A DNA stretch of 64,000 nt from Lachnospiraceae bacterium (GCA_017461725.1 JAFTXG010000018.1:1-64000); one strand, 5' to 3'. Positions 21,367 through 63,357 are shown, counted from the stretch's first letter. Translations and numbers: made by a program. The notes: a model not told the origin generated them from the sequence alone.

Positions 21367-24300
21367 ATGAAAAACAAGTATGGTCATTGGAGAGTATGTC
21401 TGTTATTATCGGTTGTGCTGTGCGCTGTTGTTATGAAAACCTGCTTGGGAGTAAATGCCGCGGGGACGATCAACTGGAATTTTATCGATGGGACATTAAC
21501 GATTTCAGGTACTGGTGAAATGGAAGATTATTCTAATGGTTCACAGCCTTGGAATGAAGATTTAAATAGTATTCAACAAGTAGTCATAGAAGAAGGAGTA
21601 TCTTCAGTAGCGGCTTATTTATGCTTTAGGGCATCGAATTTAGAAACAGTATCACTTCCATCCACAATTACAAGAATTGGCGGCAGTGCATTCAGGACTT
21701 GTGTTAATTTGACCTCATTGTCTATTCCGGGATCGGTAAGTGAAATGGGAACCGCAATTTGTCTTAATTCATCAAGACTGGAAAGTGTAATATTAGGAGA
21801 AGGGATTACCTATTTGGGAGATCGCATGTTTGAAAGCACAAGTAATCTTAAAGAAATCACTTGGCCGGTTAGTTTGACCTTAATTGGTAACGATGCATTA
21901 AAAAATACAACAAGTCTTGATACAATTAGATATGCTGGAACAATTGAACAATGGAAAGATGTATTGAGACAAGTAGACGCACAACCGTTGAAAAAGAATT
22001 CGTTATCGGTTAATTGTACAGATGGTGTATTTGTTTATGACGAATCATTAGCAGAAGTAGGACAAAGTGGTGATGTGTCATGGGTTTATGATGATAATAT
22101 TGATACGCTTATGGTTTATGGCTCTGGAGCGATGCAGGATTATGGAAACGGTACGCAACCTTGGAATGCAAAAATGAGCGACATCAGGTATGTTGTAGTA
22201 AGTGAGGGTGTTACTACCGTTTCTACTTATTTATGTTTTAGGGCTTCAAATTTAGAATATGTAGAATTGTCCTCTACAGTGATACAGATTGGTGCAAGTG
22301 CTTTTCGCACCTGCGGTAGTTTGAAAACATTTACAATACCGGGATCGGTGGAGAGCATTGGTAATGCAATGTGTTTAAACCAAACAGGATTGGAGCAAAT
22401 TACGTTTAAAGAAGGTATTTCATATTTGAGTGATCGTATGCTTGAGGGAGCTACGAACTTGAAAACCATAGTATGGCCGAAAAGTTTATATGAGCTTGGC
22501 AGTGATTCCTTGAAGAATACGAATGCTTTGACAACAATTATATATGGTGGAACCATTGAAGAATGGAAAAATGTTCTGTGGCAAGAGGGTGCAGAGAGAC
22601 TTCGTGATGGGTCAATAACAGTAACCTGTGCAGATGGCACATATGTTTATAGTGAAGAGTGTTTTTTGATGGGGACTACAGGAGCAGTTAATTGGGTTTA
22701 TGATCTACAGTCTAAAAGAATGACTGTTTACGGAAACGGAGCGATGGGGACGCATCTTAAAGGTGAACAGCCGTGGTACTCTGTGATGACAGAAATGGAA
22801 AGTTTGGTTGTAAAAGAAGGGGTAACTACAGTTTGCGATTATATGTGTTGGCAAGCCAATCAATTACAATATGTATCGTTGTCTGACACAATAGATTACA
22901 TAGGGCAGCGGGCGTTTAGTGAGTGCCATAGTTTGTGTGAATTAGATATTCCGGGAAGCGTATGCGAATTTGGGTTGTACACTTGCTATGCCTCCGGAGG
23001 TTTGGAGGAGATTGGTTTCGGTAGCGGAATCACCGGACTTAGCGAAAAAATGTTAATGAATTCAACCGGAATAAAAACAATAAACTGGCCTAAAACATTA
23101 ACTTCGATTGGTAGTCATGCATTGAAAGGATTGTATTTATTGGAGACGATTAATTACAGTGGAACGGTGAGTGAGTGGAAAACGTTATTAAGTCAGGAAA
23201 AATATGCATCTCCGTTGAAAGATAAAAAAATAACCGTTAATTGCGCAGATGGTGTATATATATATGGAATTTTTGGACAATGTGGAAATAGCATCGCATA
23301 TACATTGGATGAAAGTACAGGTATATTGACAATCACAGGTAGTGGATCAATGGAAGATTATACATCGGCAGATGATGTACCGTGGGCGGCATATACAGAA
23401 CAGATTAATAAGGTTGTATTGAAAATGGGTGTAACGTATGTTGGATCAAATTGTTTTGCGAATTGTACTGCGATAGAGTCAGTAGTTTATATTGGAAATC
23501 AAAATGACTGGAATACATTATGTGAAACTGCGGGAGACGGTAACGACTCTCTGTTTGCGGCGGATGTGTTGTTAAGAAGTGAAGGGCGTTGCGGGGAAAA
23601 TGTCACCTGGCAGTTGAGCAATCAGGGAAGAGTATTGACGATCAGTGGTTCTGGAGCGATGGACAATTATGAAAACGCTGATGATGTTCCTTGGCGCGAC
23701 AGCAGAGATACGATAACTACGGTAATCATCGAAAGTGGTGTCACCAGTGTAGGATATTATGCACTGGCATACTGTGAGGAACTGGTGGATGTCAGTATGG
23801 CGGGCAGCGTGGAGATACTGGAAACCTATGCATTCAGACAGAGTACGAAGCTTCAGCATATTATACTTCCCGAAGGGTTAAATATTATCGGTGCAAAGGC
23901 ATTTTATGATTGTACAAGCTTGGAAAGCATCACTTTTCCGTCAACCCTGACAAATATTGATATGAGAGCATTTGGAGCATGTTATAAGCTTAAATCGATT
24001 TCGTATCAGGGAACATGTTATGCGTGGGATTTAGTTGAGATCAGCATTAATGAAAATGGAAATCTGACAGGAGAGAACATTACATTTTTGCAGTCTATAC
24101 CAATTGCCAGTGAGGATTTCTCCGATATTACAGCTGCTGACTGGTACAATGCGTCGGTGCAGTATATGTATGAACGTGGTTTGATGGCAGGAGAAAACGG
24201 CGTATTCGGAAGTGAAAACCTGTTATCGGGAACAGCGGTTTTAGGTATCCTGTACATAAACAGTGGGGCTCCTGCAAATTATGGTGGCCCCGAGGCGTGG

Positions 24301-25452
24301 GCAAGGAGCTGTTCTTTGATTTCAGATACTCCCCAGACATTTGATCAAAGTACATTATCTGCATTATTGTATCGATATATGCTGTATAATACTTACCCCC
24401 AAGGTCAGTGGGAGAATATTGTATTTACGGAGGAAGAGGCCAACCTCTGGGCAGAAGCAAATGGTTTTTGGAGCGAAATAGAAAACAGCTGTTCGGGCTG
24501 GGATGATGGAATGTCACTGACCAGAGTGCAGGGTGCATCTGTTCTGGCAGCCTTTTTGCAGAGTGAGAAGGCAGTTGCGGACAGGACCTTAGCTATACAT
24601 GGTAAAATCAAATCATTGATTAGTCAGGGAGGAGATGGAAGATTACATATTATTTGCCCGAATTTGAGTGGTATTGTGACTAAGCCAGGTGATGTGACCT
24701 TTATGTTAACACCAAATGGAAAAACTATACTGATCGATACGGCTGCAGAACAGGCAGTGGAGAAGGTAATTGGTTTTCTGGAGGCAGTAGATGTGAAAAC
24801 ACTTGACTATTTGATTATCACTCATCCGGATGCAGACCATATTGGTAATGTACAAGCAGTGGCCGAGTTTATCTGTGAGACACAAAATGGCAGCATCGTC
24901 AATTATTGGTTAAATTTTGAGGACAGCAGAGATAACCGTGTCTCGACGCAGAGCTATTTGGTTGAGAAAGGAACCTTTGTAAATAACGAAGTAAGGGCAG
25001 GAGATCAGTTGACAATTGATGGTATTGATGTTCTTGTATTCGGTCCGGAACAGTCAGATTTTCAGGACAGTGTGGTGAACAATCACTCGATTGTTATGAA
25101 ATTTACATATGGAACATCGACGTTTTTAACCGGAGGAGATATTTATACTGCTAAGGAAAATGGACTGATGGAAGCTTATGGAAATCAATTACAGGCTGAT
25201 GTAATGAAGACAAATCATCATGGAAGTTATACATCAAACAGTGTAAATTGGATAGAACAGATAGATCCGCAGATTGCATTTACTTGCAGTAATGATAATG
25301 GCTGTTCAGTTACCTGTAAAGTATTTGGAGAGAAACAGATTGTGCATTATTCCAGCGGTATGGACGGTGTAGTTATGATATCTATGGATAATCAATGCAA
25401 TTATGAGGTGAATTCCGGGTATGACAGCAGACTGCGCAGAAGCTATGAGTAA
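21367..25452 (+). CDS. giant secreted protein: BspA-type LRRs, SLH-like region and ComEC-like metallo-beta-lactamase domain
   Basis: 1361 residues with a signal peptide (about 1-32). Residues about 33-890 hold five repeat modules, three of about 205 residues and two shorter, each opening with a GTLTISGTGEMEDY-type hairpin, then LRR_5 units (VSLPSTITRIGGSAF, LSIPGSVSEMG). Residues about 915-1060 resemble S-layer-homology units (FSDITAADWYNASVQYMYERG). Residues about 1090-1361 form a metallo-beta-lactamase fold with HPDADHIGN and TNHHGSYTSN, as in the extracellular domain of ComEC. Probably a cell-surface binding protein with an attached hydrolase. The LRR part is more AT-rich than its neighbours. 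Co-transcription with the sugar importer is suggested by 18-20 bp gaps. Confidence 0.85.
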   Translation: MKNKYGHWRVCLLLSVVLCAVVMKTCLGVNAAGTINWNFIDGTLTISGTGEMEDYSNGSQPWNEDLNSIQQVVIEEGVSSVAAYLCFRASNLETVSLPSTITRIGGSAFRTCVNLTSLSIPGSVSEMGTAICLNSSRLESVILGEGITYLGDRMFESTSNLKEITWPVSLTLIGNDALKNTTSLDTIRYAGTIEQWKDVLRQVDAQPLKKNSLSVNCTDGVFVYDESLAEVGQSGDVSWVYDDNIDTLMVYGSGAMQDYGNGTQPWNAKMSDIRYVVVSEGVTTVSTYLCFRASNLEYVELSSTVIQIGASAFRTCGSLKTFTIPGSVESIGNAMCLNQTGLEQITFKEGISYLSDRMLEGATNLKTIVWPKSLYELGSDSLKNTNALTTIIYGGTIEEWKNVLWQEGAERLRDGSITVTCADGTYVYSEECFLMGTTGAVNWVYDLQSKRMTVYGNGAMGTHLKGEQPWYSVMTEMESLVVKEGVTTVCDYMCWQANQLQYVSLSDTIDYIGQRAFSECHSLCELDIPGSVCEFGLYTCYASGGLEEIGFGSGITGLSEKMLMNSTGIKTINWPKTLTSIGSHALKGLYLLETINYSGTVSEWKTLLSQEKYASPLKDKKITVNCADGVYIYGIFGQCGNSIAYTLDESTGILTITGSGSMEDYTSADDVPWAAYTEQINKVVLKMGVTYVGSNCFANCTAIESVVYIGNQNDWNTLCETAGDGNDSLFAADVLLRSEGRCGENVTWQLSNQGRVLTISGSGAMDNYENADDVPWRDSRDTITTVIIESGVTSVGYYALAYCEELVDVSMAGSVEILETYAFRQSTKLQHIILPEGLNIIGAKAFYDCTSLESITFPSTLTNIDMRAFGACYKLKSISYQGTCYAWDLVEISINENGNLTGENITFLQSIPIASEDFSDITAADWYNASVQYMYERGLMAGENGVFGSENLLSGTAVLGILYINSGAPANYGGPEAWARSCSLISDTPQTFDQSTLSALLYRYMLYNTYPQGQWENIVFTEEEANLWAEANGFWSEIENSCSGWDDGMSLTRVQGASVLAAFLQSEKAVADRTLAIHGKIKSLISQGGDGRLHIICPNLSGIVTKPGDVTFMLTPNGKTILIDTAAEQAVEKVIGFLEAVDVKTLDYLIITHPDADHIGNVQAVAEFICETQNGSIVNYWLNFEDSRDNRVSTQSYLVEKGTFVNNEVRAGDQLTIDGIDVLVFGPEQSDFQDSVVNNHSIVMKFTYGTSTFLTGGDIYTAKENGLMEAYGNQLQADVMKTNHHGSYTSNSVNWIEQIDPQIAFTCSNDNGCSVTCKVFGEKQIVHYSSGMDGVVMISMDNQCNYEVNSGYDSRLRRSYE

Positions 25453-48142: not shown

Positions 48143-49051
48143 GTGTTTAACGAAGATGTGCTAAAGGAGTTTATTTTTCATTGCAGAATGAAGAAATACT
48201 CCGAACGGACGCTGAAAGGGTATAAGAATAATAATTTAGCCCTGTTCCGATTTATCAAAAATGAGTATGGGATTGCAACACTGGAGGATACCCATTATCA
48301 GGCAGTGCAGGGATATATTCAGTTCCTGACCGACAAGCATTTGACGGAAACGTATATTAATGGTCTGATCAAGTGTTTTCGGGCATATTTCCGATATTGC
48401 CATGAAGAAGGATATATCCAGAGGAATCCCATGGACAAAATCAAATTCCAGAAAGAGCCCTTGACGCTGATCAATACGTTCACAAATGCGGAAGTGTTGA
48501 GGATGGTGCAGTTCTACAATGGGAAACGGTTTTTGGATATCCGCAACAAGCTGATTATGGTGTTGCTGTTTGATACTGGAATGAGGAATACGGAACTGTG
48601 CTCGTTGCGGGAAATCGATTTGCGAGAAACCTATATCAGCATATTAGGAAAAGGGCGGAAAGAACGTCATGTTCCGATCACACCGATTATGAACAAGGTT
48701 CTGATTCAGTATCAGCGGGTGAAGAATGAGTATATTAAGGATAAGTTGGGGTATGAAACTGAGTATCTGCTTCTGTCGCAGAAAGGGCGTAAACTTACCG
48801 TGGAGACCGTAGAGCGGATCGTATTGGAGGCGGGGCTGAATGTGGGAGTCAGACCGTGTGTGAGGATTTCGCCCCATACGTGCCGACACTATTACGCCCA
48901 GACTCAGCTATACAACGGCTGTGATCTGTTTAGCCTGTCGAGACTGCTTGGACATAGCAATATCAATATTACGAAAACCTACCTACAGTCAATGCATGAG
49001 GACAATTTTCTGGAGCTGGCAATTAAGACAAGCCCGCTGGCAAATTTATAG
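48143..49051 (+). CDS. tyrosine recombinase/integrase of the yebC element
   Basis: 302 residues. An N-terminal SAM-like core-binding domain (about 1-90) precedes the catalytic domain with R148 (TGMRNTEL), K170 (ILGKGRK), H245-xx-R248 (SPHTCRHYY), H271 (LGHSNI) and nucleophile Y280 (TKTYL). All active-site residues are present, so it is probably functional. The start is GTG 48143 with GGAGG 7 bp before it, inside a masking hairpin. It lies next to the left junction as expected for the enzyme that inserted the element into yebC. Confidence 0.93.
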   Translation: MFNEDVLKEFIFHCRMKKYSERTLKGYKNNNLALFRFIKNEYGIATLEDTHYQAVQGYIQFLTDKHLTETYINGLIKCFRAYFRYCHEEGYIQRNPMDKIKFQKEPLTLINTFTNAEVLRMVQFYNGKRFLDIRNKLIMVLLFDTGMRNTELCSLREIDLRETYISILGKGRKERHVPITPIMNKVLIQYQRVKNEYIKDKLGYETEYLLLSQKGRKLTVETVERIVLEAGLNVGVRPCVRISPHTCRHYYAQTQLYNGCDLFSLSRLLGHSNINITKTYLQSMHEDNFLELAIKTSPLANL

Positions 49052-49080
49052 AACTTAAAGTGGATAAGGAGATTGGATAT

Positions 49081-49596
49081 ATGAACACTATTACAGAGAC
49101 AGAAATCAAGAGAGCGTGGAGAGAGATGGCCGACAACATCATAGCAGAACTGATTGACAAGGGGATAGATTCAGCGTTTGACCGAGATACATATACAATG
49201 TGGCAGACCTTAATTAATAAGCCTAATTTGGGCGGTGAAAGTCCGTCAGCGGAAGAAACTACCCTGAGAGCGTTTGCGATCCTTATTTTGGAAATCAGAA
49301 AGCTAATCAGGGATCAAAAAGTTATCTATGTCAATCTGCTGGTCGATGAAAAATCCTATTTTGGATCAAAATTCATTCCAACAGAGATCAAGCTGACAGA
49401 GCAATCATTTATGATTCACGGTGACACTGGCACCGAGACAACGACAAGCATTGAAATTGCAAGGGAACACATAGACGGAGTGGAACTTGACACGGTGGCA
49501 AGGGGATTTTTATTAGGAACGGTAGAGGAAGTGTCAGGCGGGAAGAATTATGTCTGGTCAATCGATTGGACTGATTTTCCGTTAGAGAAGATTTGA
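49081..49596 (+). CDS. element-encoded protein of unknown function
   Basis: 171 residues, soluble, mixed alpha then beta (IKRAWREMADNIIAELIDKG at the start; a strand-rich ending SIDWTDFPLEKI). No family recognised. ATG 49081 follows AAGGAG with 9-bp spacing; GTG 49060 lacks a ribosome site. It follows the integrase by 29 bp and probably shares its transcript, so a role in integration control or maintenance is possible. Confidence 0.6.
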   Translation: MNTITETEIKRAWREMADNIIAELIDKGIDSAFDRDTYTMWQTLINKPNLGGESPSAEETTLRAFAILILEIRKLIRDQKVIYVNLLVDEKSYFGSKFIPTEIKLTEQSFMIHGDTGTETTTSIEIAREHIDGVELDTVARGFLLGTVEEVSGGKNYVWSIDWTDFPLEKI

Positions 49597-49611
49597 ACCA
49601 GAGGAACATAA

Positions 49612-49650
49612 AAAAGAGGGATAGTCAGCAGTGGCTATCCCTCGATTTAT
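49612..49650. terminator. bidirectional terminator
   Basis: GAGGGATAG and CTATCCCTC pair perfectly around a TCAGCAGTGG loop, between the convergent unknown gene and Xre gene. Confidence 0.7.
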
Positions 49651-49865
49651 AATGTTTGGTCATCATCTGATGGAATGTATTGGACAATATCTTGAATTTG
49701 ACAATTAAGAATCCGACAAAGGTCATTTAAAGTTTTTGTTGATACATCTTTATTGTGCTTTAATCTATGAAGGGTACTATGTGAAAGATTATGCTTGCTA
49801 GTGAGCGTGTACCAGTTCTCTGTTGAGTTTTCTAAGGTTTTCCAAAAGGGGGAATAATCAATCAT
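49647..49865 (-). CDS. Xre family helix-turn-helix regulator
   Basis: A 72-residue phage-repressor-like DNA-binding protein; the HTH reads TLTSKHNLSHSTLHRLK and a typical second part LNDLCRILNCQIQDIV follows. GGAGG precedes the ATG on the minus strand. It is divergent from the SHOCT membrane genes, whose promoter lies between, and is the probable master regulator of the element. Confidence 0.85.
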   Translation of the reverse strand: MIDYSPFWKTLENSTENWYTLTSKHNLSHSTLHRLKHNKDVSTKTLNDLCRILNCQIQDIVQYIPSDDDQTL

Positions 49866-49916
49866 TTTTGTCCTCCAAAGATGTGGATGATTTTAGAATA
49901 AAGTATATTCTTACAC

Positions 49917-49945
49917 TTGAATATCTTCGGAAAAACGAATATAAT
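49917..49945 (+). promoter_or_regulatory. promoter of the SHOCT membrane gene pair
   Basis: TTGAAT (49917-49922), 17 bp, TATAAT (49940-49945). An inverted repeat GAATA-N5-TATTC lies just upstream at about 49896-49910 and is a candidate Xre operator. Confidence 0.6.
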
Positions 49946-49977
49946 GTATGAAAAAACAAATGAGGAGGCGTTTGTAT

Positions 49978-50316
49978 ATGTATAACGAAATTGGAGAGAA
50001 AATTAAAAGACTGGCACAGGTGTCTTGTATCATAGGAGCGGTGGGGTCTGTGATTCTTGGAATTGCTATGCTTGATGAAGGAATCGATGCAGGGGTTGGT
50101 GTGATTCTATTCTGTCCGTTACTGTTTTTTATTTCATCGTGGATAACCTATGGGTTTGGACAACTGGTGGATGATGTGCATAAATTAGCTCAAAATAAAG
50201 GCGGAATCCATCAAGAGAATGAAGATATTAAAGGTAAAATTGATACCTTGAAAAAGTGGAAACAGGAAGGGTTGATTACTGAAACTGAATATATAAATAA
50301 GATGGAGGAAATGTGA
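49978..50316 (+). CDS. small membrane protein with C-terminal SHOCT-like motif
   Basis: 112 residues: two hydrophobic helices (about 15-35 and 40-62), a charged linker and a C-terminal helix-turn-helix-like end IDTLKKWKQEGLITETEYINK, the short SHOCT pattern. ATG 49978 is preferred because GAGGAGG precedes it. The stop codon overlaps the next start (TGATG). Unknown function; SHOCT ends are thought to mediate oligomerisation. Confidence 0.7.
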   Translation: MYNEIGEKIKRLAQVSCIIGAVGSVILGIAMLDEGIDAGVGVILFCPLLFFISSWITYGFGQLVDDVHKLAQNKGGIHQENEDIKGKIDTLKKWKQEGLITETEYINKMEEM

Positions 50317-50954
50317 TGAATGGAGAAAAGAGGCGAAATATTAAAGCGCCAGTTGTTTTGTTAATACTCTCTTTCGTTTGTAATACAATAATTCAAATTG
50401 TCTTGGCTATAGCAGATAGACTTGAACTTGCAGACAATTGGTTTGGATTTGTTCTTTTAATGGCGGTAGGTGTAGGTGGGATTTCGTACTATTACATTTC
50501 TGCACAAAAGGAGAAAAAACGTACAGAATATTACGTTATAGGATTCAGTGCTTTGGCTATAGTTTGTATGGGGGATTTGTTTGGCAATTTGCCGATATAT
50601 GTTATTAAGAATTTAGTGTACTTGGCAATTTGTGTCCTTATGGTATGTTTAAAGTTCATAAAAAAGAACAAGAGAATTTTTAGTGTTGGATGTTGCCTTT
50701 ATGGAAGTTATGCGTTTTTGATATTCTTTTTGGGTGTAGAGGATGGCTTACTTTTTGGTGGTTGGTTAGAATTAATAGCTTTATGGCTGATTTGGTGTGA
50801 TGAGATGAAGGAATTCAAAAAGAAAAAGGAACAGGTAGTAGATTATGTTGAACTGGAGAATGACCTAAAGAAATTGAAGGAACTTCGTGAAATGGGACGT
50901 ATATCTGAACAAGAGTATGATGAGATGAAGACAAAAATATTAAACAAGTTTTGA
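50316..50954 (+). CDS. polytopic membrane protein with C-terminal SHOCT motif
   Basis: 212 residues with about five or six hydrophobic helices in residues 8-160, then a coiled charged tail ending LKKLKELREMGRISEQEYDE, a good SHOCT match. Coupled to the preceding gene by one-base overlap. The shared C-terminal motif suggests that the two proteins act together in the membrane; phage-exclusion or stress functions are conceivable but not shown. Confidence 0.7.
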   Translation: MNGEKRRNIKAPVVLLILSFVCNTIIQIVLAIADRLELADNWFGFVLLMAVGVGGISYYYISAQKEKKRTEYYVIGFSALAIVCMGDLFGNLPIYVIKNLVYLAICVLMVCLKFIKKNKRIFSVGCCLYGSYAFLIFFLGVEDGLLFGGWLELIALWLIWCDEMKEFKKKKEQVVDYVELENDLKKLKELREMGRISEQEYDEMKTKILNKF

Positions 50955-51058
50955 CACGAGAGAGTATAAAATAGTTATGTGAAGATAAAGCACATACCCT
51001 ATTTTGTTTGAGTGGAGAACGAAATATAAATGTAAAATAGCCCTGCGCGGTGGTCAGG

Positions 51059-51098
51059 TAAAGCCCTGTGAGTCTTTGAAGACACATGGGGCTTTTTT
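51059..51098 (+). terminator. terminator of the SHOCT operon
   Basis: AAAGCCCTGTG pairs with CACATGGGGCTTT (two-base bulge), followed by a run of seven Ts. Confidence 0.65.
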
Positions 51099-51107
51099 TG
51101 CAAAAGA

Positions 51108-51186
51108 TATCAAAAGAAACCTGTTTGATTCTGTATCAAAAGACGCTTGACAAGTAACAAAAGTTTGATATAATATAAGTATCAAA
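51108..51186 (+). promoter_or_regulatory. TATCAAA repeat array and promoter of the serine recombinase
   Basis: TATCAAA occurs at 51108-51114, 51134-51140 and 51180-51186; the opposite orientation TTTGAT(A/T) at 51124-51130 and 51164-51170. Within it lies TTGACA (51147-51152), 16 bp, TATAAT (51169-51174). The layout fits a recombinase binding/resolution site that also autoregulates the gene. Confidence 0.6.
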
Positions 51187-51225
51187 ACTAATGAAGGTTA
51201 AAATAAATACATATCGGAGGGCGGT

Positions 51226-51900
51226 ATGATATACGGTTATTGTAGAATCAGTACAGCAAAACAGTCGATTGAAAGACAGAAAAGAAACATCAAAGATAAA
51301 TACCCAGATGCTGTACTGATAGAAGAGGTTTTTACAAGAACGAAAATTAATCGTAAAGAATGGAATCGACTATTTAAAAAAGCAAATGAAGGAGACACTA
51401 TTGTGTTCGATAGTGTTAGCCGTATGTCTGGCAATGCTGATGAAGGATTTTCTGCTTATGAAGATTTGTATCAGAGAAAGGTAAATTTGGTTTTTTTGAA
51501 GGAGCCACACATTAACACCGAGACCTACAAAAAAGCCCTAGAGAACAACATACAGCTGACAGGTGGGAGTGTAGATTATATTTTGGAGGGTGTAAATAAA
51601 TATCTGATGGCATTAGCAAAAGAGCAGATAAGACTTGCTTTTGAACAGAGCGAAAAAGAAGTACAAGATTTACATCAGCGAACCAAAGAGGGGATTGAAA
51701 CCGCTAGATTAGCAGGAAAGCAGATTGGTCAAAAAAAGGGTGCAACGCTTATAACTAAAAAGTCTATTGATATGAAAGCGAAAATTATTAAAATGGCTAA
51801 ATCCTTTGAAGGTAATATGACTGACAAAGAAGTGATGGAAACATTGAAACTTGCGAGAAATACCTACTATAAATACAAGAGGGAGATAATTGCTGAATAG
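51226..51900 (+). CDS. serine recombinase (resolvase/invertase family)
   Basis: 224 residues. The catalytic domain starts MIYGYCRIST with nucleophile Ser9, then the family motif DSVSRMSGNADEGF (conserved Arg) and the long E-helix (about 115-150). The C-terminal part ends in a helix-turn-helix (MTDKEVMETLKLARNTYYKY). It resembles small resolvases from plasmids rather than large serine integrases. A second recombinase in the element suggests resolution of multimers or a plasmid-like phase. Confidence 0.9.
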   Translation: MIYGYCRISTAKQSIERQKRNIKDKYPDAVLIEEVFTRTKINRKEWNRLFKKANEGDTIVFDSVSRMSGNADEGFSAYEDLYQRKVNLVFLKEPHINTETYKKALENNIQLTGGSVDYILEGVNKYLMALAKEQIRLAFEQSEKEVQDLHQRTKEGIETARLAGKQIGQKKGATLITKKSIDMKAKIIKMAKSFEGNMTDKEVMETLKLARNTYYKYKREIIAE

Positions 51901-51905
51901 CTAGA

Positions 51906-51944
51906 AAAGAACTGTAATATGAAACCTATTGCAGTTCTTTTTTT
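51906..51944 (+). terminator. terminator of the serine recombinase gene
   Basis: AAGAACTG and CAGTTCTT pair, extended by TAAT/ATTG, followed by a run of seven Ts. Confidence 0.75.
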
Positions 51945-52112
51945 ACGGTAATTATACGACTTTAAAAGAAAAACGTCATAAAAATAATGTTTTTTAAAAT
52001 AAAATGTTAGGCGAAAATAACGAGACGAGAAAAACTACTTGACAACTGATTAATTTGCACAAAAAATAATGAGGAAAAGGATAAATAAATATAAAAAATA
52101 ACTAAATAGGTA

Positions 52113-52141
52113 TTGACGGAAATGGCAAAGTGTGTTAAAAT
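52113..52141 (+). promoter_or_regulatory. promoter in the leader of the replication-like gene
   Basis: TTGACG (52113-52118), 17 bp, TAAAAT (52136-52141); implies an untranslated leader of nearly 390 nt. Confidence 0.55.
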
Positions 52142-52184
52142 AATATCAAACGAAAAATGAAGGTTCGCTTTGAAGAAGAAGGAC

Positions 52185-52206
52185 GGAGGTGAATATCATG
52201 TAATAG
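52185..52206 (+). promoter_or_regulatory. start-stop minimal reading frame
   Basis: GGAGGT (52185-52190), 7 bp, ATG (52198-52200), then TAA TAG. A ribosome loading here would initiate and terminate at once. Either a real start-stop control element or a decayed leader peptide. Confidence 0.45.
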
Positions 52207-52535
52207 ACATTGCTATTTGGGTGAGTAGAAATTTCGAAAAGTCTTATGCAAATCTATATTTTCTTAATACAAGGTAATCCCAGTATTCGTTGAAATAAAT
52301 ATTTGTAAATAAGCTGTGTGATACACATGGTTTGTTAAAGTGCGCTAATTTTTAGAAAAGCCACTGTTAAATTTGAGAGCATGTTTGAGTGCACTTGTGC
52401 GCTCAATAGTATTCTTATTTAATATTCTTCTTTATTGTATTGGGTGTATTTTTTTGCACAAATACAAGCGTGTTTTAAACTTAAAAAATAATAACACACA
52501 GTATTAAGTGTGTGGTCGAAAGGAGTAATTAATTA

Positions 52536-53408
52536 TTGAGCAGGAAAATTGAATATGATTCTATTACTAATTTAAAAGGGACTGCTGCCCATTTTTTTAC
52601 TGTACCAAAGTCTGTAATTGAAAATACTGAATTGGATTATAGACGAGTTGCTTTATTTGTTTATTTGCGCAGTTACAAAGGATTAAATGAACGAGTGTGC
52701 TTTTCTGTTCCGTTGTTTTTGCAATGGGCAAATCTTAAAAATGATACACACTCGGGTGGTGTAAACGACAAAATTATAGATACTTTAGACTGTTTAAATG
52801 ATTTGGGCTATGTGACGTATTTGGGTGATAAGCCCAAGAATAAGACTTTTTGTATGGATGTACAGTTTAACACACAGCAGGTTTTTGACGAGTGTAGCAG
52901 TGATAGGTTTGCTATTGTTTATCTTGATGAAATTGAGAAGATTATGACCTACAGGAACATGAATATAAAGGATACTCATTTCAATTGTAATGCGGTGCTT
53001 CTTGTGTTTGTTTTTTTAAGGATGATGATTAATCGCAGACCAAATCAATTGAAACCAGAAGAACAAAGCATAGATAAAATTGAAGAAAGAAAGCAAAGAT
53101 TGCCAGAAGCATATAATGATACATATAAAGATATTGCAGAAATCCTTGGTTTATCGGAACGGACTGTATCAAAGTCTGTAGAGGTATTGGAAGAATTAGG
53201 GTTAATTATGATGCAACAAGCATATCACATAAAAATTGCAGACGGTGAGTATCGAACGGCTGATATGATTTTTGCAAATATGCAAAAAAGAGATAGAGGA
53301 GAGTTGCTTGCCAGTGGTAAAGAGTACGCTTATGCAGAAATTGTACAGAAAGCAAAAAATATTAATCAGCACAATAAATATTACCATTTGAAGACAGGAG
53401 AGATTTGA
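52536..53408 (+). CDS. winged-helix replication-initiator-like protein
   Basis: 290 residues with an N-terminal segment (about 25-105: ENTELDYRRVALFVYLR, SVPLFLQWANL, CLNDLGYVTYL) and a second one (about 185-225: DIAEILGLSERTVSKSVEVLEELGLI) that both look like winged helices, the layout of some plasmid and phage replication initiators. No catalytic motif is seen. The start is TTG 52536 with AAAGGAG 11 bp upstream. It may initiate element replication or regulate transcription; the family is not identified with certainty. Confidence 0.55.
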   Translation: MSRKIEYDSITNLKGTAAHFFTVPKSVIENTELDYRRVALFVYLRSYKGLNERVCFSVPLFLQWANLKNDTHSGGVNDKIIDTLDCLNDLGYVTYLGDKPKNKTFCMDVQFNTQQVFDECSSDRFAIVYLDEIEKIMTYRNMNIKDTHFNCNAVLLVFVFLRMMINRRPNQLKPEEQSIDKIEERKQRLPEAYNDTYKDIAEILGLSERTVSKSVEVLEELGLIMMQQAYHIKIADGEYRTADMIFANMQKRDRGELLASGKEYAYAEIVQKAKNINQHNKYYHLKTGEI

Positions 53409-54121
53409 TGAAAACATTCAATGAAAAAACAAAAGAAAAAAACATAAAAGTGTTTGCAGATTTGGAAAAAGATAATTTTGCAATTCTGAATCTAAAGAAA
53501 AATGAACAGATTAAGCATTGTATTGACAATAAGATGCCTGAATATTACCACACGGGGTGGGCAGTAACCAGTGAAGGGAGAGTGTGGAGTTTGAATAGGA
53601 ATCGATGGCTGGTTCCTCGGAATCAAAATGGTTATTGGCGAGTAGAGAACATATATGTTCACCGGCTGGTTGATTACTATTTTCTTTCCGATGAAGAAAA
53701 GATTATTAAAATGGTGCTGGAAGAACACAATAAGAATTGTAACGAGTCAGATAGATGGAGTGGAGAAGTTCATCACATAATCGCAGGAAGTAAGGCGGAT
53801 TCGACAAAGATGACTAATGAGGAAAGGATAGAAGCGTGTATGAAAGTAAATAATAAAGCGAATCTTTTTTTTCAAATTGAGAATGTTGACCATAAAGATG
53901 TGCACAGAATTATGAAGGGAGAAAAAACTATAGGTGAGAAAAAAGGAACAGAACAATTGGATGTTTTTAATTCTATAGTGAGAAATTCAAAACCGTCAGC
54001 ATATATTTCATATGACGAAAATGGTAAAAAGATGATAAACATGACCTTGAAGCTGAAGGGGACAACCCCTGAAGAAGATGAGAGATTGGATAAAGAGATA
54101 GGACATAAATTTTTGGCATAA
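53408..54121 (+). CDS. HNH/NUMOD4-like endonuclease candidate
   Basis: 237 residues. Residues about 40-90 (GWAVTSEGRVWSLNRNRWL, NGYWRVENIYVHRLV) resemble the NUMOD4 plus HNH arrangement of homing endonucleases; EVHHIIAGS (about 121-129) has the paired His expected of the HNH site, and NKANLFFQIENVDHKDVHR supplies Asn and His further on. The start overlaps the previous stop by one base. It could nick DNA for element spread or act as a defence or replication nuclease. Confidence 0.55.
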   Translation: MKTFNEKTKEKNIKVFADLEKDNFAILNLKKNEQIKHCIDNKMPEYYHTGWAVTSEGRVWSLNRNRWLVPRNQNGYWRVENIYVHRLVDYYFLSDEEKIIKMVLEEHNKNCNESDRWSGEVHHIIAGSKADSTKMTNEERIEACMKVNNKANLFFQIENVDHKDVHRIMKGEKTIGEKKGTEQLDVFNSIVRNSKPSAYISYDENGKKMINMTLKLKGTTPEEDERLDKEIGHKFLA

Positions 54122-56646: not shown

Positions 56647-57486
56647 TCAGATCCGGTTTTTCAAACTCTTTCGATACTGTGTCGGAGAAACGCCGAATTG
56701 CTTGTGAAAATAGCTGGAGAAGTGCGGATAACTGTTAAATCCCACCCTCTCAGGGATGTCCTGCAAGGCCAGGTCTGTATTGAGAATCAAATGTGCTGCG
56801 CGGGTTAAACGGACCTTTAACAGATACCCGTGCAGGCTGCTTCCCGTGCTGGACAGAAACAGACGGTTCAGATAATATTCGTGATAGCCTGCCAGTGTGG
56901 CAAGGTCTTTGTTGGTCAAATCTTTTTCGTAATTTTCGTCAATGTAGTTCATGATAAAATCCACGGTGGAGCGGGCAGGAACCTTTATCTGGCAATGTAG
57001 GTCAATCAGAAGTTCTTTCAAAACGCTGCTGCTGATTTCTCGAAAATAGAGACTGTTTCCGTTGAACGCCTTAAGTATCTTCTCGATATATCGATAAAAA
57101 CGACTGCCATCCTGTAAAAAAAGATGGGAATTTAAAAAATCGGAATCCTCCACCGGTTGAAAACTGATGGGGAAGTCCGGTTCTTTTTTTGTAAGACTCA
57201 CAGGCGCATAGGGCAGGATCCAGCTGTTATTTTCCTGGGTCAGGTCAAAGTTGAGACTGACCAAAGAGAAGTTTTCCGGTGACAGGATGTTGTACTGACT
57301 ACCACAGGCGCAGTACATCAGGGAGCCCGGGCTTAGCTGGTAATGTTGATTTTCGATAAAAATATCTGCTTTACCGTTTACGGTATAAAAAATCCGGCAG
57401 TCTCTTACCTTCACGGGATAATCGCTGGTTTGATACTTGATTTGTGAAGCAAAACGAAGATGCGGATTGAGATCGCAAAGTTTCAT
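56647..57486 (-). CDS. AraC family transcriptional regulator
   Basis: 279 residues. N-terminal cupin sensing domain (about 20-130; LSPGSLMYCACGSQYNI) and C-terminal double helix-turn-helix (about 175-275; NKDLATLAGYHEYYLNRLF, PERVGFNSYPHFSSYFHKQF, GVSPTQYRK). The ATG at 57486 has AAGGATG upstream. It is divergent from the U32-like and Fe-S cluster across about 230 bp and is its likely regulator, responding to an unknown small molecule. Confidence 0.9.
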   Translation of the reverse strand: MKLCDLNPHLRFASQIKYQTSDYPVKVRDCRIFYTVNGKADIFIENQHYQLSPGSLMYCACGSQYNILSPENFSLVSLNFDLTQENNSWILPYAPVSLTKKEPDFPISFQPVEDSDFLNSHLFLQDGSRFYRYIEKILKAFNGNSLYFREISSSVLKELLIDLHCQIKVPARSTVDFIMNYIDENYEKDLTNKDLATLAGYHEYYLNRLFLSSTGSSLHGYLLKVRLTRAAHLILNTDLALQDIPERVGFNSYPHFSSYFHKQFGVSPTQYRKSLKNRI

Positions 57487-57715
57487 GGAATCATCCTTCT
57501 TTCCTGAGAAATGGTTGTGTGTAGTTGAAGCTGAATGTTTGTTTTTCGAAAGTTCACGTTTGTTTTGTGGATGTATTGTAGCATGTTTCTGTGATAAAGT
57601 AAAGATGCAGTTAGGCGGTGTATTCACAATGCTCAACACAGAATATCGCTGCCTATCTACTGGGTGGAAAAAACAGCTGCAGTAAATTTGTGTGTCAGCT
57701 ATGCGAGGGCAGATA

Positions 57716-58642
57716 ATGAAATTTACAGTCGGATTACAATTTACAAACGAAGCATTTCTGGACTGCATTGTGGAACAGAAGAAGCACATCGATGAGGTGT
57801 ACTTTTCCTGGGGGGATTTCCCCAACGGCAGAAGCAGTCAGCTATTGGATGCCGATTTGACACCTTGGGAGCTTCAACATCGACAGATGGAGGTATTGGC
57901 ACGTCTCTCCGGGGAGGGGATCGGCCTGAATCTTCTGTTCAATGCCAATTGCTATGGTGCAGACAGTCAGTCCCGTTTGTTTTTTGAAAAAATCGGCATG
58001 ACCGCAGACTATATATTGACAAATTACGGTTTAAAATCTGTGACCACCACGTCTCCGCTGATTGCCAAATTTATTAAGTCCAATTTTCCGACGGTTCAAG
58101 TGCGGGCATCGGTCAATATGGAGATTGGCACGATACAGGGGATGGACTATCTGGCAAATTATTTTGACGGCTACTATATGAAGCGGGAGCATAACCGGGA
58201 TTTTGTAAAAATTGAGGAACTGAGTGCCTGGTGCCGGGAAAACGGAAAAAAACTGTACTTGTTGGCGAACAGCGGCTGTCTGAATCACTGCTCTGCCCAT
58301 AATTTTCATGACAATCTGGTGGCTCATGAGCATGAAATATCCCGGATGGACAATGCCTACAATTTCGGCGGCATCTGTCGTGAGTATTTGAAGGATGAGC
58401 GCCATTATCTGTCGTTGATTCATGATACTAATTTTATCCGACCGGAAGATATCTATAAATACGAACCCTATTTTGAACAGGTAAAACTGGCTACACGGGT
58501 GAACCGGGCACCTGTATTGGTGTTAGACAGCTATATCAGAGGCAAATATAGCGGAAACATATTAGAGCTTTTGGAACCGGCTCACCGCATTTATCCCTAT
58601 GTGATTGAAAACGGTGAACCGCTTAGACTTGTGAAATTATAA
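57716..58642 (+). CDS. U32 peptidase-like TIM-barrel protein with candidate Fe-S cysteines
   Basis: 308 residues. The overall pattern (TVGLQFTNEAFLD, YFSWGDFP, VRASVNMEIGT, LVLDSYIRG) looks like a U32-type barrel. Four cysteines, C79 (NANCYG), C188 and C192 (GCLNHC) and C221 (GGICREY), are spaced as in UbiU/UbiV-type U32 proteins, where they hold a 4Fe-4S cluster. Such proteins perform oxygen-independent hydroxylations rather than proteolysis. Start chosen at ATG 57716 (GAGGG before it). First gene of the Fe-S cluster operon. Family call is moderate; the reaction is unknown. Confidence 0.55.
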   Translation: MKFTVGLQFTNEAFLDCIVEQKKHIDEVYFSWGDFPNGRSSQLLDADLTPWELQHRQMEVLARLSGEGIGLNLLFNANCYGADSQSRLFFEKIGMTADYILTNYGLKSVTTTSPLIAKFIKSNFPTVQVRASVNMEIGTIQGMDYLANYFDGYYMKREHNRDFVKIEELSAWCRENGKKLYLLANSGCLNHCSAHNFHDNLVAHEHEISRMDNAYNFGGICREYLKDERHYLSLIHDTNFIRPEDIYKYEPYFEQVKLATRVNRAPVLVLDSYIRGKYSGNILELLEPAHRIYPYVIENGEPLRLVKL

Positions 58643-58660
58643 ATAACAGGAGGAAAAACT

Positions 58661-59740
58661 GTGCTTACAAGTAAAATGATCAAGGATGCCGCGTTGGCGG
58701 CAGGTGCAGACGCGTGCGGGATCGCACCCATGTCCCGGTTTGACGGCGCACCTGACGAGATGAACCCGCAGTTTCTGTTTCCTGAAGCGAAAAGCTGTAT
58801 CGGATTTGTATTTCGCATCCCCAGAGGTGTGCAGCGAGGAATCGAGGAAGGAACCCAGTTTTATCAGTATCCGTCCATGGCTTACGGCGGAATTAATGAG
58901 ATTTTTGCGCCTGCGGTTTTGTATCAGGTGGGAAAACTGATCGAGGATGAGGGATACGAGGCCTTTGTTTATCGAAATACCGGTGCTCGCGGAGTGGTTT
59001 CCGATATGGATGGAAGTCCGGGAAATACATTGTCTCCGGAGGAGCAGATTGAAATCAATGAAAATGCCAAGACGTCCACGGCCCATCACAGAAGCGTACA
59101 GTTTACCCGGCCTGCCAGAGAGGGCGGAGTGGCACCTGATTTGCAGTTCCAGTTTCGTCTGGCGGCGGTGGCCTGCGGTCTGGGTGAAATCGGTTGGAGC
59201 AAGATGCTGTTGACACCGGAGTTCGGTCCGCTGCAGCGGGTGGCGTTTCTCTTTACCGACGCGGAACTGGAATACGATGAAATGTATAATGGCAAGCCGC
59301 TGTGCAGAAAATGCGGAGCCTGTGTGAGAGAATGTCCCGGTGGCTGTATTCCGGCGCTTAATTCGGGGAAAACGGTTACTGTGAATCTGGACGGAAAAAT
59401 CTGTGAGTGGGCTGACATCGATATGTGGAGATGCTACGCTTTCTATACCCATGCGGGAAGACACTATAATCCGTTTGTGCCAAAGGAGGTCTGGGATGCC
59501 AATGAGGACGGCGCGCTGAATCTGATGGAGGGCATCACTGATGTGGCCGATGAGCAGGAGATCATGAAGGTTTACACCGCACTTCAGAAATATTTCCCCA
59601 GTTGGGTGGGTTATAATATGGCAAAATGCGGCGGATGCATTCGTGGCTGTGTCTCCGTTCTGGAGAAAAAGGGCGGCTGCATGGAGGGTAGATTTGAGAG
59701 TCCTCTGCGCACCAAAAAAGCCTGGAAGCTGGAACGCTGA
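58661..59740 (+). CDS. QueG-like two-cluster Fe-S protein, copy 1
   Basis: 359 residues. Start GTG 58661 with AGGAGG. The N-terminal half (AALAAGADACGIAPMSRF, EAKSCIGFVFRIP, CGLGEIGWSKMLL then TPEFGPLQRVAFLFT) matches the epoxyqueuosine-reductase/reductive-dehalogenase fold, with GLGEIGW where QueG has GLGWIGK. Cluster cysteines: CRKCGACVRECP (about 214-225) and, near the end, CGGCIRGC. Substrate unknown; it is too divergent for true QueG. Longest of three tandem paralogues. Confidence 0.75.
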   Translation: MLTSKMIKDAALAAGADACGIAPMSRFDGAPDEMNPQFLFPEAKSCIGFVFRIPRGVQRGIEEGTQFYQYPSMAYGGINEIFAPAVLYQVGKLIEDEGYEAFVYRNTGARGVVSDMDGSPGNTLSPEEQIEINENAKTSTAHHRSVQFTRPAREGGVAPDLQFQFRLAAVACGLGEIGWSKMLLTPEFGPLQRVAFLFTDAELEYDEMYNGKPLCRKCGACVRECPGGCIPALNSGKTVTVNLDGKICEWADIDMWRCYAFYTHAGRHYNPFVPKEVWDANEDGALNLMEGITDVADEQEIMKVYTALQKYFPSWVGYNMAKCGGCIRGCVSVLEKKGGCMEGRFESPLRTKKAWKLER

Positions 59741-59757
59741 GATGGGAGGATGATAGG

Positions 59758-60651
59758 ATGCTTACAAGCGAACTGATCAAAGAAAAGGCGAAAAGCCTGG
59801 GAGCGACAATTTGTGGAATAGGAAGAGTTTACGACGAAGAAAATCCACAGCGTGATCCGAAAATGATTTTACCAAAGGCGAAATCGATTATCGGGTTTGG
59901 ATTTGCGGTGCCTAAGGGGCTTTACAAGGCCATGGAGCGGGGAAATCAGTATTATACCTATACCACCCTGGGTGTGAAATACATTGACGAGGAAATGGCA
60001 GAGATTTTTCTGCTGAAAATGGGAGGTCTGATCGAAAATCACGGTTATGATGCCTGCCTACAGAAGGCGATTCCGAATCTGCGGATCAAAGGGGATAAAA
60101 CCACGAACCCGGAAGTGATGGATACTTATGAGCTGATTCATGCGGAAGCGGTGGAAGAAGGAAAGCCCGCGCCCGATGTGATCATTGATTTTGGCAAGGC
60201 GGCAAAGGCCTGCGGTCTGGGAGAGATGGGCCTGAATGGGAAAATCGTCAACAGACAGTATGGTCCGTTCATGCGCTATTGCTTCATCATCACGGACGCA
60301 CCTCTGGATTATGACGAGCCGTTGACCGAAGCAGTTTGTGATAAATGCGGGGCCTGTGCGCAGGCCTGCCCCGGCAATGCGATTTCTGATGGGGGTCTGG
60401 ATACCTGGCAGTGCAGCGTTTATTATAAGGGCGCACACAAGTCTAACCCATTCATGACAGAGGCATTTTTAAAGGATGACCCTGAGCGGGAGGACATTAT
60501 CAACGGACGCAAGCGCTTTGATGCGGAATCTGCGAGGGCACTCTACCCGGAGATGAAATTCCTGCCCAATACCCAGTGGGGATATTCCCCCTGCCTGTGC
60601 GGGCGGAAGTGCGATGTGGCCTGCTACAGGCATCTGGTCGGGAATCTATAA
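59758..60651 (+). CDS. QueG-like two-cluster Fe-S protein, copy 2
   Basis: 297 residues, same fold as its neighbours: AKSLGATICGIGRVYDEEN, KSIIGFGFAVPKGLYKAM, CGLGEMGLNGKIVN, YGPFMRYCFIITDAPLDYDE. Cluster cysteines CDKCGACAQACP (about 195-206) and CLCGRKCDVAC near the C-terminus. It starts 17 bp after copy 1. The three copies differ most in length and in the segment before the first cluster, suggesting different substrates or a hetero-complex. Confidence 0.75.
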   Translation: MLTSELIKEKAKSLGATICGIGRVYDEENPQRDPKMILPKAKSIIGFGFAVPKGLYKAMERGNQYYTYTTLGVKYIDEEMAEIFLLKMGGLIENHGYDACLQKAIPNLRIKGDKTTNPEVMDTYELIHAEAVEEGKPAPDVIIDFGKAAKACGLGEMGLNGKIVNRQYGPFMRYCFIITDAPLDYDEPLTEAVCDKCGACAQACPGNAISDGGLDTWQCSVYYKGAHKSNPFMTEAFLKDDPEREDIINGRKRFDAESARALYPEMKFLPNTQWGYSPCLCGRKCDVACYRHLVGNL

Positions 60652-60684
60652 TGGAGTGCCAAACGCATCGGAGGACAAGGGAAA

Positions 60685-61620
60685 ATGAAAGAGAAAATTA
60701 TTGGGATCGCGATGGCAAACGGAGCAGACCTGGTGGGGTTTGCCCCTGCGGACAGGTTTGACAAAGACGATGCTATTTTCAAAATCATGCCGGAAACAAA
60801 GACAGTTATCGGTTTGGCATTTCGCGTGTTGAGAGGCATTTATCGCGGTATTGAGGAGGGCAGTACATATTATCAGTACACCACCATGGCAGTGGAAAAT
60901 ATGGAAGAAACCATAATGCCTATGGCCCAGATGAAGGTGGCAATGATGATAGAGCAGGAAGGCTATACGGCGCTTCCGCAGAGACGTCATCAGCAGATTA
61001 TGGCTCAGGAGGACGGCATGAATCCTGAGGTGGCTTACGATGCCATTTATCGTGGAAGAACGGCAGAGGTTCAGATGGATTTCCTGGATGCTGCAGTGAA
61101 ATGTGGGCTGGGCGAGAAAGGTTTTTACAGGACGCTGCTCACGGATGAGTTCGGTCCGATGGTGAGATATTGTTTTATTTTGACGGACGCAGAGCTTCCT
61201 GCCAGTGAGATGATAGCTCCTCATCTCTGTGACAACTGCGGAAAATGTGCAAAGGGATGTCCCGGAAAAGCCATCGGAGCGGATGGCAGGGTGGACGACT
61301 GGCAGTGCGCTGTTTACTATAACGGAGCAAACGGAACAAAAAATCCGTTTATGCCGCCGGAGGCGTTTGCCGATCTGGATAACCGTCTGGAAATCATTGC
61401 GGGAGAAGCCAAAGTGAGCCCGGAAACGGCGAAAAAAATTCTGGATAAGATTTACTTTTATCCGCCGGCTCAGCATGCCTATCAGTGCTCCATCTGCGGA
61501 CGGGCCTGTGACATGGAATGTTATGTACATCTGGAGGAGAAGGGCGTGCTGACCAAGAAGTTTAAGACGCCTTTCCGGAAGCGGGAGCCCTGGCAGTTTG
61601 ACGTGAAGGATTTTGAATAG
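60685..61620 (+). CDS. QueG-like two-cluster Fe-S protein, copy 3
   Basis: 311 residues: MANGADLVGFAPADRFDKDD, KTVIGLAFRVLRGIYRGIEE, CGLGEKGFYRTLL, FGPMVRYCFILTDAELPASE. Cluster cysteines CDNCGKCAKGCP (about 184-195) and CSICGRACDMEC near the end. The ending CYVHLEEKGVLTKKFKTPFR parallels that of copy 1. It starts 33 bp after copy 2. Whether cobalamin is bound, as in QueG, cannot be judged. Confidence 0.75.
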   Translation: MKEKIIGIAMANGADLVGFAPADRFDKDDAIFKIMPETKTVIGLAFRVLRGIYRGIEEGSTYYQYTTMAVENMEETIMPMAQMKVAMMIEQEGYTALPQRRHQQIMAQEDGMNPEVAYDAIYRGRTAEVQMDFLDAAVKCGLGEKGFYRTLLTDEFGPMVRYCFILTDAELPASEMIAPHLCDNCGKCAKGCPGKAIGADGRVDDWQCAVYYNGANGTKNPFMPPEAFADLDNRLEIIAGEAKVSPETAKKILDKIYFYPPAQHAYQCSICGRACDMECYVHLEEKGVLTKKFKTPFRKREPWQFDVKDFE

Positions 61621-61674: not shown

Positions 61675-63357
61675 ATGATCGCAGCAGACAGAGAACAGAA
61701 AAGGTGCACAATTCCTCATATCCTGTGCAGGGAAAAAAGACATTGGACAATTTCTGTGGATAAACATCAAGATTTTACCGATATCAGTCTTCTGGAAATG
61801 GAGGGCTTGGAGAATGTGGCCGGAGTGGAGGATGAAGGCTATATCGTGATTCCCAGAGCGCTGGGAAGTGATGATTACGGTCTTTGCCGGTTTGACAAGC
61901 ATCCGGAGGAATTTGAGGTTACCCTGCGGGAACTGAATATGCCAATTTTTGGATTAAAAACAAAGGATCGATGCTTTTTGGCAGTAGCCAGCGGCATGAC
62001 CTGGGATTTTTATCTGAGAATCCAGCAAAAGGGCGGACGCTACAGCATTTATCCGGGATTTTATGTGAACGAAGAGCAGCCGGAGGAGGATTTTAAGCTG
62101 GAGTTCTTTGAACTCACCGGTGAGGACGCAAATTACTCCGGAATGGCCAGAAAATATCGGAAATACCGTATGGATCGCGGCGAGTTAACTCCGCTGGCGG
62201 ACCGCATGGCGAGTAACCCTTACCTGGATTATTCCGTCAACTCCGCGATGATCCGCATTCGCTGCGGTTGGAAACCGGCGCCGCCTGAGGTGCTTCACCA
62301 GAGTGTGGAAAATGAGCCGCCCATGTATGTGGCCTGTGATTTCGACCGGGTGAGTGACCTTTTGGACGAGTTAAAGTTCCAGGGTGTGGATAAAGCGGAA
62401 GTTTGTCTGGTGGGCTGGAATGTGAAAGGACATGATGGAAGATGGCCTCAGGCGTTCCCCGTGTGTGAAGAACTGGGTGGTGAGGCGAAACTCAGAGCGC
62501 TGATCCAAAAAGCACAGGGGATGGGTTATCAGATCATCTGTCATACGAACAGTACAGACCAGTATGAGATAGCAGATTGTTATGATGAGGAAAATACACG
62601 CCGAAATAAAGCAATGGAGCCCATCAGCAACGCGTTTTGGAGTGGCGGGCAGATGTATGAGCTTTGTCCTCAGATCGGTTACGAGCAGGCACAGAAAATG
62701 CTCCCGGAGGTGGCATCTCTTGGGTTTAAAGGATCACACTATATCGATGTGATCGGAGTAATTTATCCCAGACGATGCTACCATGAAAAGCACCCGGTTT
62801 CCTTTCGCCAGTCCGTGGAGTATGCAAAGAAAATCTGCGCCATTGCGAGGGATGAGTTTGGAGGTATCTCCTCCGAGGGCGCTTACGATTACCTGGCACC
62901 GGACCTGGACTACGGACTGTATATCAGCTTTAAACAGGGAGGCGAGGGCATATGTGATAAACCGATTCCGTTCTGGCAGATGGTTTACCATGGCATCGTG
63001 CTGAGTAATCCTTATGCCATGACAGTCAATGCCACATTTAAGGAGCCGGACAGCCTGTTGAAAATGCTGGAATATGGCGGACGCCCCACCTATTATTACT
63101 ATTCGGCATTCATGGGCAACGGTAAAAACTGGATGGGCAGTATAGATGCCCGCTGTGATGACGATAAGGAATTGAAGGAGTCGGTAGAAAAGATAAAGAA
63201 AGGCTATGATATCTACCGCTCCATGACTTCACTGCACACTGCCTATATGGAAAAGCATGAAGAGGTGGAAGAAAACGTCTTCGAGGTCACCTATTCCAAC
63301 GGTGCCGTGGTGCGGGTGGACTATAATAAAAAAAACTATGAGATAAAAGGGGAATGA
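61675..63357 (+). CDS. glycosidase-like TIM-barrel protein, family uncertain
   Basis: 560 residues, no signal peptide. A beta-rich N-terminal part (about 1-170; GEDANYSGMARKYRKYRMDRG closes it) is followed by a barrel-like region (about 190-470) with acidic strand ends (VACDFDRVSD, ICHTNSTDQYE, SHYIDVIGVIYP, GGISSEGAYDYLAPDLDY) as in glycoside hydrolases of the DUF5696 or GH101-related type. It follows the third Fe-S gene by 54 bp and may be the sugar-cleaving step of the same pathway. Function inferred only from fold-like motifs. Confidence 0.5.
   Translation: MIAADREQKRCTIPHILCREKRHWTISVDKHQDFTDISLLEMEGLENVAGVEDEGYIVIPRALGSDDYGLCRFDKHPEEFEVTLRELNMPIFGLKTKDRCFLAVASGMTWDFYLRIQQKGGRYSIYPGFYVNEEQPEEDFKLEFFELTGEDANYSGMARKYRKYRMDRGELTPLADRMASNPYLDYSVNSAMIRIRCGWKPAPPEVLHQSVENEPPMYVACDFDRVSDLLDELKFQGVDKAEVCLVGWNVKGHDGRWPQAFPVCEELGGEAKLRALIQKAQGMGYQIICHTNSTDQYEIADCYDEENTRRNKAMEPISNAFWSGGQMYELCPQIGYEQAQKMLPEVASLGFKGSHYIDVIGVIYPRRCYHEKHPVSFRQSVEYAKKICAIARDEFGGISSEGAYDYLAPDLDYGLYISFKQGGEGICDKPIPFWQMVYHGIVLSNPYAMTVNATFKEPDSLLKMLEYGGRPTYYYYSAFMGNGKNWMGSIDARCDDDKELKESVEKIKKGYDIYRSMTSLHTAYMEKHEEVEENVFEVTYSNGAVVRVDYNKKNYEIKGE

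Follow-up and report, generated by a model that had tools for sequence, protein, structure and literature searches.

The window analysed here, a 64,000-nucleotide stretch of a Lachnospiraceae bacterium genome (GCA_017461725.1, JAFTXG010000018.1:1-64000), carries at positions 57716-61620 four intact open reading frames (ORFs) in the same direction, encoding a U32-type barrel protein (hereafter U32) and three paralogous proteins of the reductive dehalogenase (RDH)/QueG superfamily (Q1, Q2 and Q3). This four-gene set is real, ancient and common to gut bacteria of plant-eating animals. We see an even chance that it is an operon controlled by AraC and spread horizontally, whose products carry out an anaerobic reduction, or a short pathway, acting on a carbohydrate-linked compound, a reading in which we infer the cobamide cofactor, the electron path, the chemistry and the substrate class. 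The parts come from known superfamilies and the assembly appears to be new: a search of the open-access literature (subscription papers and preprints were not covered) for U32 proteins with RDH/QueG proteins, for gut QueG paralogues and for DUF5696 gave nothing relevant, in agreement with the first-pass annotation of this DNA, which knew of no described system of this composition. The ORFs are separated by gaps of 18, 17 and 33 base pairs (bp) and preceded by sequences resembling ribosome-binding sites; the U32 start proposed earlier, 57716, is correct.

57716..58642, + strand: U32-fold (beta-alpha)8 barrel, 308 amino acids, cysteines C79/C188/C192/C221 (predicted structure, intermediates)
58661..59740, + strand: Q1, RDH/QueG superfamily, 359 amino acids, GTG start (profiles, model, motifs)
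59758..60651, + strand: Q2, RDH/QueG superfamily, 297 amino acids, eight cluster cysteines as in Q1 (sequence profiles)
60685..61620, + strand: Q3, RDH/QueG superfamily, 311 amino acids, eight cluster cysteines as in Q1 (sequence profiles)

A scan seeded with U32 retrieved 14 loci, from Clostridia and one Victivallales, all with U32-Q1-Q2-Q3 in order; they come from gut metagenome-assembled genomes, the sampled animals including deer, goat, buffalo and rabbit. With the loci added by a class-wide survey, the complete set is present in the same order in 26 distinct loci, nearly all in Clostridia and one in Victivallales, so that the genes are linked in relatives; scattered genes would have counted against the original proposal. 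As a guard against bias from U32 seeding, we ran a survey of Clostridia seeded with Q1, which found U32 adjacent or one gene away in 18 loci and not in three triads. Among 382 genomes, all 20 with a family-I Q1 also have U32 (hypergeometric 1.6e-30, a value that ignores kinship). Coding selection on the four genes is strong, with identities of 0.39-0.45 at third codon positions compared to 0.78-0.94 at second positions; this gap, together with the 26 complete loci, argues that the set is not a product of chance. Q1 is the most conserved protein of the set (mean identity 0.85, compared to 0.58 for U32), and the distance matrices of the four proteins correlate (r 0.71-0.94). Within the window Q1 shares 33% identity with Q2 and 37% with Q3, whereas the Victivallales Q1 is 78% identical to the window Q1, and the paralogue split therefore predates the spread of the set. 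The module is missing from sampled relatives in the window's own family, and genes for an integrase and a resolvase lie just upstream, thus it is likely to have arrived horizontally. The upstream stretch (48143-54121) has a low GC content of 33-41%, encodes a helix-turn-helix protein, a phage-type integrase (48143-49051) and a resolvase (51226-51900), and constitutes a mobile element directly upstream of the module. A plasmid search with Q1 returned two distant RDHs only.

Two features upstream of the first gene bear on its regulation.

56647..57486, - strand: AraC-family regulator, 279 amino acids, divergent from the operon (HTH_18, 76.5 bits)
57536..57566, + strand: candidate AraC operator, direct repeat TGTTTGTTTT-N11-CGTTTGTTTT, period 21 bp (repeat scan)

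The start of the AraC gene is best placed at 57486, and an AraC-type gene adjoins the module in most family-I loci. Most of these loci also have the direct repeat TGTTTGTTTT-N11-TGTTTGTTTT, with a 21-bp period, upstream of the first gene; allowing up to 4 mismatches it occurs in 26 of 45 loci, compared to 0-4 in shuffled sequences, and 21 bp is the commonest repeat spacing among the loci. It precedes triads without U32 as well. Direct repeats of this geometry are typical of sites bound by AraC-family regulators. As the geometry fits and such a regulator is encoded next door, the repeat at 57536-57566 is a plausible operator, to which AraC would bind, and its conservation supports the AraC control proposed earlier. 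The repeat is unique in the 3.2-Mb genome of the window at up to 2 mismatches; further operator sites, sought elsewhere in that genome to reveal a regulon, were not found.

The three Q proteins each score below the cut-offs of both families of their superfamily, with 43-55 bits to TIGR02486 (RDH, cut-off 160) and 27-48 bits to TIGR00276 (QueG, cut-off 200), while a pooled Q profile matched the solved structures of PceA (2.3e-15) and QueG (6.3e-13). The predicted structure of Q1 (predicted local distance difference test, pLDDT, 74; predicted template modelling score, pTM, 0.80; residues 107-161 unreliable) has the nitroreductase-like cobamide domain and ferredoxin domain of this fold, with Z scores of 15-16 to RDHs and QueG compared to 8.8 to CblC; Q2 and Q3 are placed in the superfamily by sequence profiles. 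Residues 107-161 form a Q1-specific insertion that hardly varies between copies yet is modelled without structure (core pLDDT 33-44); it probably serves as a loop that binds a partner or the substrate. Eight cluster cysteines are invariant in 45 of 45 sequences; in Q1 they make up two [4Fe-4S] motifs (C215/218/221/225, C258, C323/326/330), the assignment of ligands to the two clusters following QueG (PMC4646009).

Around the predicted active site, the catalytic Tyr246/Arg305 pair of RDHs (residue roles from PMC4646009) has counterparts in Q1, by alignment, in Y70 and R193. Arg193 is matched to Arg305 through the GPxxR motif, an arginine that QueG lacks; Tyr70 is kept in almost all relatives, although its alignment to Tyr246 crosses a helix-length difference and is less certain than that of R193. 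An ungapped reading with E80 as the counterpart of Tyr246 was dropped, as E80 varies outside family I whereas Y70 is kept. N106 of Q1 is equivalent to RDH Asn272, and in family-I Q1-Q3 the AGLG motif reads CGLG, placing a ninth invariant cysteine (C172) beside the cofactor loop. D160 may correspond to Asp130 of QueG. Alignment to E. coli QueG shows that Q1-Q3 lack its DYH motif, and they end soon after the second cluster, without the C-terminal helical domain of QueG. Since the Tyr and Arg are kept and these two QueG features are absent, the predicted active site of Q1-Q3 resembles that of RDHs more than that of QueG. The first-pass annotation, largely right overall, described three proteins with two clusters each and a QueG/RDH fold; the superfamily and the clusters hold, but the proteins are nearer to RDHs than to QueG.

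The window's genome (86% complete) encodes QueA and QueH, and no QueG above cut-off was found in it, therefore the trio is unlikely to be the cell's queuosine enzyme and we rejected this role. Two more small proteins of about 280 amino acids are encoded outside the module in the same genome (G000 C3:38227-38613 and C8:149593-149889), with weak similarity to QueG (28-30 bits). Enzymes that modify RNA are known among both U32 oxidases and QueG proteins (PMC11574389, PMC4646009), and the whole set could in principle act on tRNA or rRNA, with U32 in a role like that of TrhP or RlhA beside QueG-like proteins. We regard this as highly improbable, given that the genome already has two ordinary U32 loci in addition to QueA and QueH, that Q1-Q3 lack both the DYH motif and the helical domain proposed to bind tRNA in QueG (PMC4646009), and that patchy spread with an AraC regulator and operator-like repeat of its own is unlike a housekeeping RNA enzyme.

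The RDH-like active site raises true reductive dehalogenation of a halogenated compound as an explanation, which would account for the conserved Tyr and Arg equivalents and for PceA as the best profile match. However, the TIGR02486 scores fall far short of the cut-off, Q1-Q3 begin at the N-terminal cobamide domain without an RDH-type twin-arginine translocation (Tat) leader, no small membrane gene that could encode an RdhB-like anchor is conserved beside them, and the neighbourhood is sugar-type and the hosts animal-gut bacteria; we thus consider dehalogenation very unlikely.

U32 oxidases are known for hydroxylation of ubiquinone and RNA. The U32 protein of the window has no Pfam or NCBIfam match (the Pfam gathering cut-off for PF01136 is 22.4 bits), and a profile search of solved structures with the U32 profile gave no match up to an E-value of 10. 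Its predicted structure (pLDDT 82.7, pTM 0.83) nevertheless has the U32 barrel fold: the top Foldseek match is the U32 protein Mk0906 (5d88, E 1.3e-9), with a Z score of 16.4 and a root-mean-square deviation of 3.4 over 210 residues, compared to Z 13.1 for the next barrel. Divergent relatives score 18.6-21.5 bits (family II, including L078 at 21.5) and 28-57 bits (family III, including L083 at 56.6) to PF01136, and since the window protein itself scores below the cut-off it is linked to this family by fold and by these intermediates. C79, C188, C192 and C221 are invariant across U32 families I and II, and the protein is probably a [4Fe-4S] protein; the earlier description, a barrel of U32 type in which four cysteines are cluster candidates, is thus borne out. 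The CX6CX15CX3C motif carried by the studied U32 oxidases (PMC11574389), which perform O2-independent redox chemistry via a [4Fe-4S] cluster (PMC11574389), has no match in the window protein, where the four cysteines above stand instead. Some family-I and all family-II members have an extra four-cysteine C-terminal tail.

From these observations we propose a sequence of steps. AraC would sense the compound, or something formed in its breakdown, and activate the U32 promoter through the repeat. Low-potential electrons would enter Q1-Q3 at the distal cluster, move to the proximal one and from there reach a base-off cobamide located in the nitroreductase-like domain; use of a cobamide is possible, as the window's genome encodes another B12-binding protein. 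At least Q1 would cleave or reduce a substrate C-O (or C-X) bond, using Tyr70 and Arg193 as the putative proton-donor pair; Q2 and Q3 may handle intermediates that arise later, or assemble with Q1 into a hetero-complex. With its own [4Fe-4S] cluster, U32 may perform or prime a redox reaction of that same substrate, and an optional GFO/IDH dehydrogenase, DUF5696 hydrolase and sugar permeases would feed in the sugar part.

Several observations weigh against this proposal. A search of eight loci and of the window at 40-64 kb turned up no cobalamin riboswitch, and neither Q2 nor Q3 in the window has a counterpart of RDH Asn272. One genome has two Q1-Q2-Q3 sets without U32 and its U32 elsewhere (L125, L126, L065), a further triad lacks U32 (L127) and lone U32 genes occur (L065, L089); U32 therefore need not share the operon. 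In addition, the sugar-type neighbours differ by locus, and genes of this kind abound in these genomes. The missing N106 equivalent in Q2 and Q3 is one of three points that would suit Q proteins acting as electron-transfer or reactivating modules for U32 or a distant partner, with no substrate chemistry of their own, the others being that three paralogues each carry all eight cluster cysteines and that a simpler set of one U32 and one Q exists. We find this rather unlikely, because the active-site Tyr and Arg are retained in nearly every copy, Q1 is more conserved than the U32 it would serve, and triads occur without a linked U32. The simpler sets (L076, L078, L080, L081) pair one Q protein with a divergent U32 bearing the four-cysteine C-terminal tail, and are likely a less elaborate version of the system. 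A further RDH/QueG sub-system in Clostridia, also undescribed, consists of two Q-like proteins with no U32 (L132-L137), in most cases beside an AraC or LacI regulator. Among loci with U32 and one Q, or with one or two Q alone, several lie near AraC/LacI regulators, solute-binding proteins, GFO/IDH proteins or amidohydrolases, and two Q-pair loci sit among housekeeping genes.

Downstream of Q3 the window continues with a glycosidase-type gene.

61675..63357, + strand: DUF5696 (GH101-like) glycosidase-type protein (PF18952, 181 bits)

Two sugar-type ATP-binding cassette (ABC) permeases follow, starting at contig position 63736. DUF5696 adjoins Q3 in 7 distinct genomes and often, though not always, closes the operon; a GFO/IDH/MocA dehydrogenase is close downstream of Q3 in 7 genomes (with intervening genes in two), and a cupin, solute-binding proteins and permeases recur among the sugar-type neighbours. 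The sugar-type surroundings noted in the window are therefore a recurrent feature. A cupin gene is found in nine loci, and between Q1 and Q2 in seven, and a radical S-adenosylmethionine (SAM)/SPASM protein related to tungsten-cofactor maturases lies inside the operon in two (L063:4783-5709 and L126:4887-5882; TIGR04317 about 240-250 bits, cut-off 380), with no aldehyde oxidoreductase partner identified beside it. These cupin and radical SAM genes would suit a cluster that served biosynthesis or maturation (decoration of a peptide, cofactor or polysaccharide) rather than catabolism, but no precursor peptide or synthetase is present among the conserved neighbours, and an AraC regulator with transport and hydrolase genes is typical of catabolic loci, making this explanation improbable. 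Further upstream in the window, a 1361-amino-acid protein (21367-25452) fuses BspA-type leucine-rich repeats to a metallo-beta-lactamase domain and adjoins a glycoside hydrolase family 4 (GH4) gene and an ABC sugar transporter.

More specifically, and more tentatively, the set may represent an undescribed anaerobic catabolic system of gut bacteria: three class III cobamide reductases that do not dehalogenate would work jointly with a U32 Fe-S barrel on a glycoside or modified sugar derived from plants. To our knowledge, dehalogenases and QueG are the cobamide/[4Fe-4S] reductases known so far; the joint action of three such reductases and U32 on a glycoside or modified sugar would, if true, add a reaction class new to both superfamilies. 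A widely shared, inducible operon of three reductases and U32 would provide a first handle on the role of both superfamilies in gut fermenters, and the dedicated regulator with its operator-like repeat would make the inducing compound directly screenable.

Among described systems, the Fe-S/U32 enzymes of human gut bacteria (PMC11574389) share the U32 superfamily and the anaerobic gut setting; that review uses neither "reductive dehalogenase" nor "epoxyqueuosine" and thus describes no pairing of U32 with RDH/QueG proteins. The window barrel shares with U32 oxidases (UbiU/UbiV, TrhP, RlhA; PF01136) the (beta-alpha)8 fold, four cysteines in barrel-mouth loops and a cysteine pair after the seventh strand. 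It differs in scoring under the Pfam cut-off and in its arrangement of CX3C, one downstream cysteine and C79 in the N-terminal half, a layout that loosely recalls UbiV. With QueG (TIGR00276) the Q proteins have in common the fold, the cluster spacing CxxCxxCxxxC...C...CxxC(x3)C and the lack of a leader peptide; they differ in Arg193, in the missing DYH motif and C-terminal helical domain, and in not being the cell's queuosine enzyme. With RDHs (PceA, NpRdhA; TIGR02486) they share the fold (Z about 16), the double [4Fe-4S] motif, the GLG...GPxxR segment and the active-site Tyr and Arg, but they are far under the family cut-off, shorter and without a Tat leader or membrane partner, and they occur as three paralogues in a row in a different gene neighbourhood.

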